Below are positions 4,889-9,220 of a DNA stretch of 10,417 nt, piece by piece. Below the pieces are notes generated by a model. That model was not told the origin of the DNA, did not search any database, and worked only from the letters and a program-made list of their open reading frames with translations. Source of the DNA: Phycisphaeraceae bacterium (GTDB lineage: Bacteria; Planctomycetota; Phycisphaerae; Phycisphaerales; Phycisphaeraceae); the NCBI GenBank assembly GCA_016763955.1, contig JAESSU010000298.1:1-10417 (forward strand), written 5' to 3'. A program made the position numbers and the translations under genes. Every line of letters starts with the position of its first letter. Position 1 is the first letter of the stretch.

Positions 4889-6082
4889 ATGTCCTATACC
4901 GTACTGGCAAGACGATACCGCTCCACCGCATTTGAAGGTGTCATAGGGCAAGAACCCATTGCTCAGACCCTCAAAAATGCCATTAAGTCTGGCCGTATTG
5001 CACATGCCTACCTCTTTTCTGGCACACGCGGTGTAGGCAAAACCTCCATGGCCCGCATCTACGCCCGTGCTCTTAACGCACCGGCGACCATCCCCGACTG
5101 TCCCGTCCCCCCCGGTGAACATGAATATCCCCCAGAAGATGTCCAACAGCGTATGGCGACGGCTATCATGGCGGGGGATGATCTAAATGTCATCGAAATT
5201 GACGGGGCATCAAACCGAAGTGTCGAAGATGCTCGCCAGCTTATTGGCAATGCATCACTAGCGCCCACTGGCAATGCTCGGTTTAAAATCTACATCATTG
5301 ACGAAGTGCACATGCTCACCAAAGAAGCGTTTAACACGCTCCTAAAGACCATGGAAGAGCCTCCCGCCCACGTCAAATTTATTCTCTGCACGACTGAACC
5401 TCACAAAGTATTGGCAACGATTCAAAGCCGTTGCCAGCGGTTTGATTTCCGTAATCTCCCCAGTGCTCGGATCGCAGAACATTTGACCAATGTGCTTAAA
5501 CAAGAAAAAATTGAAGCCCAGGCCGATGCCATCTGGCAGGTGGCACGGTTAGGTAATGGCTCGATGCGTGATGCACTAAGTCTCATGGATCGACTGATCG
5601 CAACGGGGAAGTTTCCCTTGTCAGCTAAAATTCTCGAAGAGATGCTTGGTTTGCCTCCTGTTGAACAGGTTGTGGGACTCGTTGAGGCCATGGCTGCTGG
5701 TGATATCGGCAAGACGCTGACACAAACGGCGGCCCTAATTGATGGCGGCATTGCTGTGGAGCAGTTCTTTGATGTTCTAATTGAACGCTTGCGAGTGTTG
5801 ATGCTCGTCGCTGCCTGTGGCAAGGATAGTGAACTCGTTGAGTTGGCTGATGATGCACGCGATCTTGCAGCAACACAGGCTCAATCATTTGATGCTGCGG
5901 GTATTGTGCACATGATCGCGCTATGTGAAAATGTCCAACGCACCTGCAAACTCAGTTCCAATCCCCGAGCCTTATTAGATGCTGCGATGGTGCGATTAGC
6001 TCTAGCGGAAAAAATGGCAGACGTGTCTGCGGTGCTTCAAGGCGGCGGACAAGCTGGCTTTGGGGCGCAAAAAAAAAACTAA
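4889..6082 (+). CDS. dnaX: DNA polymerase III subunit gamma (zero-frame product)
   Basis: The unshifted reading frame encodes 397 residues and stops at TAA 6080-6082, one codon after the ten-adenine run. It contains the whole ATPase module and collar domain that oligomerises in the clamp loader, but neither the linker nor the tau domain. That is the domain content of E. coli gamma, where however the short form arises by frameshift. Here the short form is the default product. The +1 frame also ends quickly (TGA 6087-6089), so any other slippage product would be gamma-like too. Confidence 0.75.
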   Translation: MSYTVLARRYRSTAFEGVIGQEPIAQTLKNAIKSGRIAHAYLFSGTRGVGKTSMARIYARALNAPATIPDCPVPPGEHEYPPEDVQQRMATAIMAGDDLNVIEIDGASNRSVEDARQLIGNASLAPTGNARFKIYIIDEVHMLTKEAFNTLLKTMEEPPAHVKFILCTTEPHKVLATIQSRCQRFDFRNLPSARIAEHLTNVLKQEKIEAQADAIWQVARLGNGSMRDALSLMDRLIATGKFPLSAKILEEMLGLPPVEQVVGLVEAMAAGDIGKTLTQTAALIDGGIAVEQFFDVLIERLRVLMLVAACGKDSELVELADDARDLAATQAQSFDAAGIVHMIALCENVQRTCKLSSNPRALLDAAMVRLALAEKMADVSAVLQGGGQAGFGAQKKN

Positions 6083-6684
6083 CAACTGAGCCCTCGCCTG
6101 CTAAGCGACCCGAGGCCCGTCCTGTTTTATCGCCAAGACCAGCACCAGCACCCACGCCAACACCTAAGCCCACAACGCCTCCAACATCATCACCGGCGCA
6201 AAGCAATTCGACGACCCCCAGTTATGTGCGTGAGATTGACACGACGGACGTGAAAGCGGTTTGGTCGGAAGTCTCTCGTGCAGCGGGCAGGTCACAAACT
6301 TTAAGTTTTCTTAGCGCTGCTTTTACCATTGATACGATTCAAGACTCACAGGTGACGCTTGCGCCCAAGCCGGGCAGTCGCGGTTTTATCACTGAAAAAC
6401 AAAAGTCCCAACTCGCCCAGCTCATTAGTGATGTGCTTGGCAGGCCTGTCAACGTGCAGGTAAAGCAGAAGGTTCGCCCAGCAGCGACGGCGGACACTTC
6501 TAATACAAATGGCGGACTCACTGAACGCCAGCTTGCGATGAAATTACCCTTGGTTCAGCAAATTAGTGAGCATTATGATGTCTCACTTATGGATGTGTCT
6601 GACGAACAGCTCATCGATGAACCCTCACCCGATGCCGTTGAAAGCGATGACCTTTTAGACGAGCAGGAGCAAGACGATGTTTGA
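4889..6684 (+). CDS. dnaX: DNA polymerase III subunit tau, via -1 slippage
   Basis: Clamp-loader ATPase and organiser of the replicative polymerase; the long tau form links the clamp loader to the polymerase core and helicase. It is read from ATG 4889 (AGG at 4881-4883) to the A10 run at 6069-6078, then in the -1 frame to TGA 6682-6684, giving about 598 residues. Domains: AAA+ module with Walker A GTRGVGKTS (45-53), Walker B IIDEVH (136-141), SRC motif (180-182) and GNGSMRDAL (222-230); collar domain to about 380; a Pro/Thr/Ala-rich linker (about 397-446) encoded only in the -1 frame; C-terminal tau domain from VREIDTTDV to an acidic end. No stop codon occurs in the -1 frame between the A run and 6682. 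The usual four-cysteine zinc module is missing: only Cys71 remains. The end overlaps ebfC by eight bases. A missed A in the assembly would give the same picture. Confidence 0.82.
6069..6078 (+). promoter_or_regulatory. Poly-A slippery site in dnaX
   Basis: Ten consecutive A residues are read as CA-A AAA AAA AAC in the zero frame and followed directly by TAA. Either ribosomal -1 slippage on repeated AAA codons or RNA polymerase slippage adding one A (or removing two) would join the ATPase frame to the tau frame. Known precedents are the A AAA AAG ribosomal site in E. coli dnaX and the A9 transcriptional slippage site in Thermus dnaX. I see no convincing downstream stem-loop or well-spaced upstream Shine-Dalgarno stimulator, which slightly favours transcriptional slippage. 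Confidence 0.7.
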
Positions 6685-7033
6685 TAATCTCAAAAACATG
6701 GCAGGCATCATGGGCCAAGCCAAAGAAATGAAACAAAAAATGGAAGCGGTTCAGGAATCGCTTTCGAGTAAGACGGTTTCTGCGGAATCTGGAGCTGGTG
6801 CGGTGACGGTGATTATGAATGGCAAATTTGAAGTCATGGACATCAAGATGGACCCGGTGATGATTGTCACTTTAGCTGGCGAAGGTGTTGATGCGGACCA
6901 GCAGATGATTCAAGATTTAATCGTCGCAGCTTGCCGTGGAGCCCATGTTAAAGCTCAGCAATTAGTCCAAGATGAAATGGCTCAAGTGACTGGCGGATTG
7001 AATTTGCCAGGGTTGGATCAGATGTTTAAGTAA
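6677..7033 (+). CDS. ebfC: YbaB/EbfC family nucleoid-associated protein
   Basis: Small DNA-binding protein of 118 residues that acts as a dimer on the nucleoid. Family features: a helical N-terminus with Met/Lys-rich coiled segment (about 10-32: MGQAKEMKQKMEAVQE), a beta-rich core with VTVIMNGKFEVMDIKMDP (about 43-60), and a C-terminal helix rich in Ala and Gln ending near GLNLPGL. Length is normal for the family. Start ATG 6677 has AGGAG at 6665-6669 with seven-base spacing and lies inside the last codons of the tau frame, so it overlaps dnaX by eight bases and is probably translationally coupled. The dnaX-ebfC pairing is widespread in bacteria, but recR, commonly next, is not here. Confidence 0.9.
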   Translation: MFDNLKNMAGIMGQAKEMKQKMEAVQESLSSKTVSAESGAGAVTVIMNGKFEVMDIKMDPVMIVTLAGEGVDADQQMIQDLIVAACRGAHVKAQQLVQDEMAQVTGGLNLPGLDQMFK

Positions 7034-7868: not shown

Positions 7869-9220
7869 TCATGCAGCGAGGGCGTTTGGTATCTGTTGAT
7901 ATGTTTCGGCATTCTGTTGCGTGAACTTACCCTGTCCAGTGAGGTCAATAACAGTCTTTCCCACTAAGTGTTCAGGTTGTAGCGATTGAATCGATTTGGT
8001 GATCACCACGACCTGTGCATCGGCTAATGCGCTCTGTAAATCGTCACGTAAAAGCATCTTTAAATGTGGTAAATGTTGGGCGACATACACTGCGTTGGCA
8101 CCAATAAGATTCTCTGGAATCAAATCCGGGTCATAAATGGAAAGTGCAATACCCTTACCTAGCAGTTGTTCTGCGAGGTCTACCATTGGGCTTTCACGTA
8201 GATCATCCGTACCTGCTTTGAATGTCAGTCCAAGGAGTAATGTCCGTTGACGTCCATGTGATAGGACGGCATCGACACCGCGTTTTAGCTGCGCTTTATT
8301 GGCATCAAGAACAGAACTAATCAGTGGTAAGTCATGCCAAATTCATGGGCTTTACCCATCATCGCACGGGTGTCTTTGGGCAAGCAAGAGCCGCCAAAGG
8401 CAAAGCCGGGTTTGAGATACGCAGGTGAGATGTTGAGTTTTGTGTCCTGTGAAAAAGCATGCATGACCTTGGCAGGGTCTGCGCCCAAGGCATTGGCTAA
8501 AGCCCCAATCTCGTTGGCAAAGTCGATTTTAATCGCATGAAAAATATTACATGCATATTTCATCAATTCACTTTCACGGGATGCTAAAGGCAGATGAGGC
8601 GCATCGACATTTTGATAAAGGGTGTGCATTGCCTGATCCACAGCGACGCGATCAGATGGATCATCGGAACCCCAGACAATCATCGGAGGCTGATGCCAGT
8701 CTTTAAGGGCGCTGCCTTCGCGTAAAAATTCGGGATGATGACATACTGCAATATTGGGGCATGAGGCTTTGAGCTTGGGGACAATGTGTGTTGCGACAGT
8801 ACCCGGTGGAACCGTGCTACGGATCATCACCACGCGGGGCTTGGTTTCAAAATGTAGGGACATGGCAAGCTGATCGGTGACGCGATTGATCGCATCGAGA
8901 TTCACTTGGCCTTGTGCGTTACTGGGTGTGCCTACCGCAACCATAATGATGTCCGCTGCTTTGACTGCGGCAGTTAAATCATCGGTTGCATCAAGCTTTC
9001 CGCTGGCATGCATCTGGGAAACGAGTTGTTGCAAGCCCGGTTCAAACACAGGTGATTGACCGCTTTGGAGCATCTTGAGTTTGGTGGGTTGCACTTCTAC
9101 GCCAATGACATGACAACCTTGGGATGCCAAGGCTGCGCTACTCACTGCACCGACGTACCCCATGCCAATCATTGCGACGGTGGGCATGGTTTTGACTGTC
9201 GTTTCTTGATTAAGTGTCAT
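7869..9220 (-). pseudogene. Nucleotide-sugar dehydrogenase with a frameshift
   Basis: UDP-glucose/GDP-mannose dehydrogenase family: NAD-dependent four-electron oxidation of a sugar nucleotide to its uronic acid, feeding acidic polysaccharide synthesis. Restored length would be about 450 residues. The N-terminal Rossmann site is IGMGYVG (18-24); PEFLREG (163-169), KYACN (221-225) and Lys231 lie in the middle; the catalytic cysteine is Cys279 in AFGGSCLPKD. The style of PGFAFGGSCLPKD and the QPPM after LREG favours the AlgD-like GDP-mannose 6-dehydrogenase branch, but substrate cannot be fixed. The first frame stops at 8321-8323. Adding one T opposite 8329-8330 restores the family sequence MTLPLISSVLDANK and the C-terminal LTFKAGTDDLRES domain down to TGA 7869. 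Start ATG 9220 overlaps the upstream stop (TAATG) and has AAGGA at 9234-9230. It could be a true pseudogene or a sequencing error. Confidence 0.8.

Follow-up and report, generated by a model that had tools for sequence, protein, structure and literature searches.

Gamma as the template product, and tau by predicted transcriptional slippage on ten adenines, in the dnaX gene of a Phycisphaeraceae bacterium

In the stretch of Phycisphaeraceae DNA analysed here (10,417 nucleotides, further called the window), dnaX has gamma as its template default, and tau is probably made through transcriptional slippage on a run of ten adenines. This reading, put forward in a preliminary description of the same DNA, is supported by the conservation of the run and the stop behind it, by selection on the -1 frame, by the presence of stops in both non-tau frames and by the absence of a downstream fold. 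By this mechanism one locus would give two clamp-loader proteins. The template read as written yields gamma (397 aa), and RNA polymerase slipping on the ten A would produce some mRNA with 11 A (or 8 or 14), in which translation would continue into tau, by this reading a protein of 598 aa. Messages with 10, 9 or 12 A would meet one of the two stops behind the run and be translated into gamma. We infer the occurrence of slippage, its transcriptional level and its rate all from sequence.

The dnaX gene of the window and of its genus

The following features of the window are used throughout.

4889..6082, plus strand: zero frame of dnaX, the gamma form of 397 aa (open reading frame, Pfam)
6069..6078, plus strand: A10 run, the putative slip site (sequence; a run of A7 to A12 at the equivalent place in 43 of 43 family loci)
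6080..6082, plus strand: zero-frame TAA, end of gamma (sequence; TGA at this place in three congeners)
6087..6089, plus strand: +1-frame stop TGA, closing the second non-tau frame (sequence)
6079..6684, plus strand: tau-specific extension in the -1 frame, 201 codons and a stop (open frame, dN/dS)
6677..7033, plus strand: ybaB/ebfC, its start overlapped by the last codons of tau (open reading frame, Pfam YbaB_DNA_bd)

The preliminary description placed a TAA one codon after ten A in the zero frame, an open -1 frame of about 600 bases with a Pro-rich linker, and a closure of the +1 frame at 6087-6089, and all three are found in the sequence. The run is flanked by C at 6068 and C at 6079 (C-A10-C-TAA, 6068-6082) and is read as CAA AAA AAA AAC TAA, the -1 frame has no stop from the run until 6682-6684, and the non-tau stops lie 1 and 8 nt past the A10. 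The window hereby combines the hallmark of a reversed (two-ORF) dnaX, a zero-frame stop directly behind the run with tau in -1, with two Thermus-type features, namely a run of at least nine A (here A10) and near stops in both non-tau frames. The run also holds the in-phase heptamers A_AAA_AAA and A_AAA_AAC. Neither of the E. coli-type stimulators was found: the stretch behind the run shows no downstream fold (MFE -8.3, z +0.73), and there is no Shine-Dalgarno-like core within 20 nt upstream.

Pfam recognizes DNA_pol3_delta2, DNAX_ATPase_lid and DNA_pol3_gamma3 in the gamma form, corresponding to the AAA+ clamp-loader core, the lid and domain III. A Pfam search with the window's own tau extension gave no match; among 18 related extensions, PF12362 (gamma/tau C terminal) matches four, weakly (best 3.5e-05), and DNA_pol3_tau_5 matches one, at 0.057. 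The extension consists of a Pro-rich linker followed by a conserved C-terminal part, and it has the linker and a conserved C-terminal motif in common with the tau parts of its relatives.

The preliminary description had suggested a comparison of run and stop in related genomes. In each of the three congeneric genomes (G001, G002 and G003), C-A10-C is directly followed by a zero-frame stop, so that run and stop are kept in four of four genomes, the window included; in G003, dnaX sits on a 7.4-Mb contig, the sole contig of that genome. The -1-frame extension has a dN/dS of 0.13-0.28 in four of the six congener pairs (dS being saturated in the other two), and the gamma part one of 0.03-0.06 in all six. 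The -1 frame is under purifying selection.

Exact A10 runs occur 12 times in the window's own assembly, counting both strands (3.58 Mb, 78.5% complete). Besides that of dnaX, three such runs, on other contigs of the same genome, lie within long open frames (L288, L289 and L291), of which one has a weak glycoside hydrolase 42 match, one has no Pfam match and one has CarboxypepD_reg matches with the A10 near the start of the frame; these are possible further slippage genes. Elsewhere in the window, a gene of the UDP-glucose/GDP-mannose dehydrogenase family (7869-9220, minus strand) is split, its N-terminal and central domains ending at 8321 and the rest being read in a different frame between about 8340 and 7869. 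The junction is without a homopolymer, and the split is either a draft error or a broken gene.

Template default and site design among relatives

Within the family, 51 genomes were searched and 43 gave a dnaX hit, the other eight falling below threshold. An A run near residue 390-420 is present in 43 of 43 loci, with ten A in 38 loci, nine in two, and seven, 11 and 12 in a single locus each. The template encodes gamma in 21 loci and tau in 22, and A10 prevails under both defaults (18/21 and 20/22, respectively). A close relative lacking the A run but having an unbroken tau frame would have spoken against slippage; the tau frame is unbroken in 22 of the 43, yet the run is there in every one. 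By inspection, the two defaults are separated by indels adjoining the run: A10-CTRACC is found in the genus and A10-G-CTGACC in some tau-default relatives, and the tau peptide KKKLT is the same in both. In the dnaX gene L020 (genome G028), codon 106, within the conserved core, is an in-frame TAG.

The default product matters less if RNA polymerase slips frequently, since both defaults share A10 and the close pair of stops. The earlier reading, with gamma as template default and tau through slippage at A10, is the best supported one, but the importance that it gives to the default would be overstated in the case of frequent polymerase slippage. In the nearest sister genus, a locus known from one metagenome assembly (L014) combines A12 with a +1-frame tau; such a tau is beyond the reach of a -1 ribosomal shift and so supports transcriptional slippage. 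A10 via +1 and A12 via -1 converge on one 11-A message. The A9 locus L107 likewise has tau in the +1 frame.

To these 43 loci, 80 from five more families of the order and four from outside the order were added, giving 127 class loci. In the order sample, five of 121 genomes had no hit at threshold, and two of the 82 out-of-family hits, both partial, were left out (G107 and G089). A profile of the relatives' tau detects the extension in 120 of the 127; for seven rows (L095, L102, L106, L109, L112, L113 and L118) the choice of tau frame followed the open frame, and for the others the profile. An A run of seven or more is present in 117 loci and an in-phase heptamer in the other ten (eight GGGAAAA, one CCCAAAA and one GGGAAAG, the last, in tau-default L116, being perhaps a chance occurrence).

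The labels of a transcriptional and a ribosomal design were set by run length. The A9-A12 design counts 77 loci (55 tau-default, 22 gamma-default) and the A7-8/heptamer design 50 (41 gamma-default, nine tau-default). Both non-tau frames are shut within 40 nt in 73 of the 77 loci of the former versus 5 of the 50 of the latter, counts which, like the frame-closing tests on loci, treat relatives as independent; the A9+ exceptions are L022, L030, L043 and L109. The contrast persists with limits of 20, 30, 60 and 80 nt as well as within each of three GC bins, linker GC being unequal between the designs (means 0.66-0.68 versus 0.74). When stretches farther down each gene serve as the reference, the +1 frame closes early in gamma-default A9+ loci (median empirical p 0.08) and shows no early closing in gamma-default A7-8 loci (median p 1.0). 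A tree-aware test of the trait against the stop pair, on seven independent pairs on supported branches, found 6.3 on average in the expected direction and none in the opposite one (median p 0.031, range 0.016-0.125).

Downstream folding, measured on the 60 nt just 3' of the site with controls 120 and 200 nt further on, also separates the designs among gamma-default loci. The mean z is -1.83 for A7/heptamer loci (n=41; z < -1.5 in 23) versus -0.14 for A9+ loci (n=22; z < -1.5 in three), with control stretches around 0 in both groups. Among tau-default loci the contrast is weak (-0.94, n=9, versus -0.41, n=54), the A7/heptamer fold there being no different from its own control stretch. A Shine-Dalgarno-like core (GGAG, AGGA or GAGG, at most 20 nt upstream) precedes 21/41 A7/heptamer versus 0/22 A9+ gamma-default sites, and 3/9 versus 12/54 tau-default sites. 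The A7 runs stand in the one phase that yields A_AAA_AAA in 38 of 38 cases, and this fixed phase speaks for ribosomal shifting in the A7 genes. As an observation apart, A7 sites read A_AAA_AAA followed by a different base, and the E. coli site A_AAA_AAG occurs in none of the 50 A7/heptamer loci. The long-A, two-stop design fits transcriptional slippage and the A7/heptamer design fits -1 ribosomal frameshifting; the window has the long-A, two-stop design.

Other candidate signs did not hold. Codon-phase freedom of A10 was rejected as a mark of transcriptional slippage, A_AAA_AAA being present in every A10 phase. Three loci with a lone A7 or CCCAAAA among A10 relatives (L055, L057 and L017) were rejected as clean ribosomal switches, since their third frame is open yet the downstream fold is absent (z 0.64, 0.12 and -0.27). 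The suggestion that two lysine tRNAs might accompany transcriptional slippage, found in the extracts of a review (PMC5009743), is unsupported here: with an anticodon-loop pattern, a tRNA-Lys(CUU)-like match was found in 49/50 A7/heptamer genomes, 26/30 out-of-family A9+ genomes and 28/41 family genomes, the UUU control matching in 80/80 genomes of the first two sets and 38/41 of the third. Outside the run, the lysine codons of 53 tau-default A9+ genes are AAG 462 times and AAA 186 times; that AAG never interrupts the run in tau-default A9+ genes is true by construction of the class and is only a point of consistency with selection on the run at the nucleotide level.

On a family tree (43 family rows and three outgroup rows), gamma-default as a single clade is rejected (AU p 0.0005; nine changes, bootstrap range 8-10). 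Parsimony on the class tree, which came from a quick search and has 38 of its 124 inner branches starred as well supported, counts 21 template-default changes and 11 design changes, the starred branches alone forcing at least eight and at least seven, respectively. These counts suggest that the gamma/tau template arrangement has flipped to and fro many times among relatives. On balance we lean towards the view that, within one order, the slip site has repeatedly switched its template product and its level (transcription or translation) with the two-product output being kept; if so, selection would hold the dual output and leave the mechanism to drift. That gamma may be needed alongside tau is a long-standing argument. 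In all 127 loci, whatever the default, the end of gamma lies near an A run of at least seven or an in-phase heptamer, which speaks for selection on the dual product.

Outside the class, 57 loci were analysed, about half of the hits in the phylum. A9-A11 occurs in ten, of which seven close both non-tau frames within 40 nt. Only one of the ten (L179) is gamma-default, so that, within this sample, the gamma-default arrangement looks concentrated in the order of the window. In eight other outside-class loci (L182 to L187, L190 and L191) the zero frame stops at 376-448 aa, and no A run of seven or more was found near the end of these frames; some may encode a gamma-only DnaX and others may use an unrecognised site.

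Two questions, whether the third frame is closed and whether a stem is present, could hereby serve as a sequence-only test of transcriptional versus ribosomal slippage, and the clade supplies sets of close relatives on which slippage signatures can be tested. Gene callers halting at the gamma stop would presumably miss tau in such genomes.

Alternative explanations

The strongest alternative, although an unlikely one, is that tau arises by -1 ribosomal frameshifting on A_AAA_AAA or A_AAA_AAC, as gamma does in E. coli. The in-phase heptamers inside the run allow it, and the gamma-default A7 or GGGAAAA-type loci of the same order resemble real -1 sites, with their A_AAA_AAA phase in 38/38 and a fold z below -1.5 in 23/41. 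Against this, the window has a z of +0.73 and lacks a Shine-Dalgarno-like core, frameshifting has no need of the three extra A and the +1-frame stop, which are nevertheless conserved, and in E. coli, according to PMC5009743, A_AAA_AAC shifts far less readily than A_AAA_AAG. The sequence evidence favours transcriptional over ribosomal slippage at the window, two levels between which the preliminary description did not decide; a -1 ribosomal shift could add to it or replace it, as the in-phase heptamers would permit, and such a shift is feasible on A10 whatever its phase.

Gene fission, by which gamma and the C-terminal part of tau would be separate proteins and the second be made by re-initiation, is highly improbable. 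A 152-aa open reading frame does start at a GTG at 6226, but across the 22 gamma-default A9+ loci the distance from the gamma stop to the earliest potential tau-frame start is not fixed, ranging over 25-485 nt (median 156.5), and the tau frame is already open at the run; fission would moreover leave the A run without a role. An error of assembly or sequencing in the run would be suspected from the fragmented draft (559 contigs, 78.5% complete) and from the gene at 7869-9220 being split across frames, but it is scarcely credible given that the run and a stop behind it recur in the three congeneric species and that gamma is the default at 21 family loci. We do not take the arrangement for an assembly artefact, as A10 and the stop are kept in all three congeners and purifying selection acts on the -1 frame. 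A decaying gene that lost tau and retained gamma, for which the DnaX proteins of other families of the phylum ending at 376-448 aa without an A run could be invoked, can be discarded in view of the extension dN/dS of 0.13-0.28 and the tau profile being positive in 120/127 class loci.

Comparison with known systems

The reversed dnaX arrangement is known from published work, often at A10. In the extracts of Antonov et al. 2013 (PMC3711429), 17 dnaX genes from 12 genera need recoding for tau, nine of them with ten A, and transcriptional slippage is proposed, an account repeated in the review PMC5009743; in E. coli reporters with another gene, A7, A9 and A11 gave 10, 40 and 63% frameshifting (PMC3711429). 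These two-ORF genes are like the window in having gamma in the zero frame and tau by recoding into -1; the hosts named in those extracts are Chlorobi species only, two planctomycete genomes being part of the set surveyed. A search of the open-access literature, subscription papers lying outside it, found no description of dnaX recoding in Phycisphaerae.

Slippage has been demonstrated for Thermus thermophilus dnaX, where, according to PMC5009743 and PMC1088944, it is transcriptional and results in both products. The long A run and the two close non-tau stops are shared with the window, but the template product is tau on A9 in Thermus and gamma on A10 in the window. E. coli dnaX resembles it as a single gene giving gamma and tau from one slippery site, and differs in that its gamma comes from a -1 ribosomal shift on A_AAA_AAG, helped by stimulators (PMC5009743). 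In Shigella mxiE and Citrobacter rodentium tssM, transcriptional slippage on a homopolymer likewise restores a longer product, but these are unrelated genes and no conserved dual-product replisome locus, as described in the extracts of PMC1088944 and PMC4256274. New here are the density and the mixing of states in one order, together with two signatures by which a transcriptional design can be told from a translational one.
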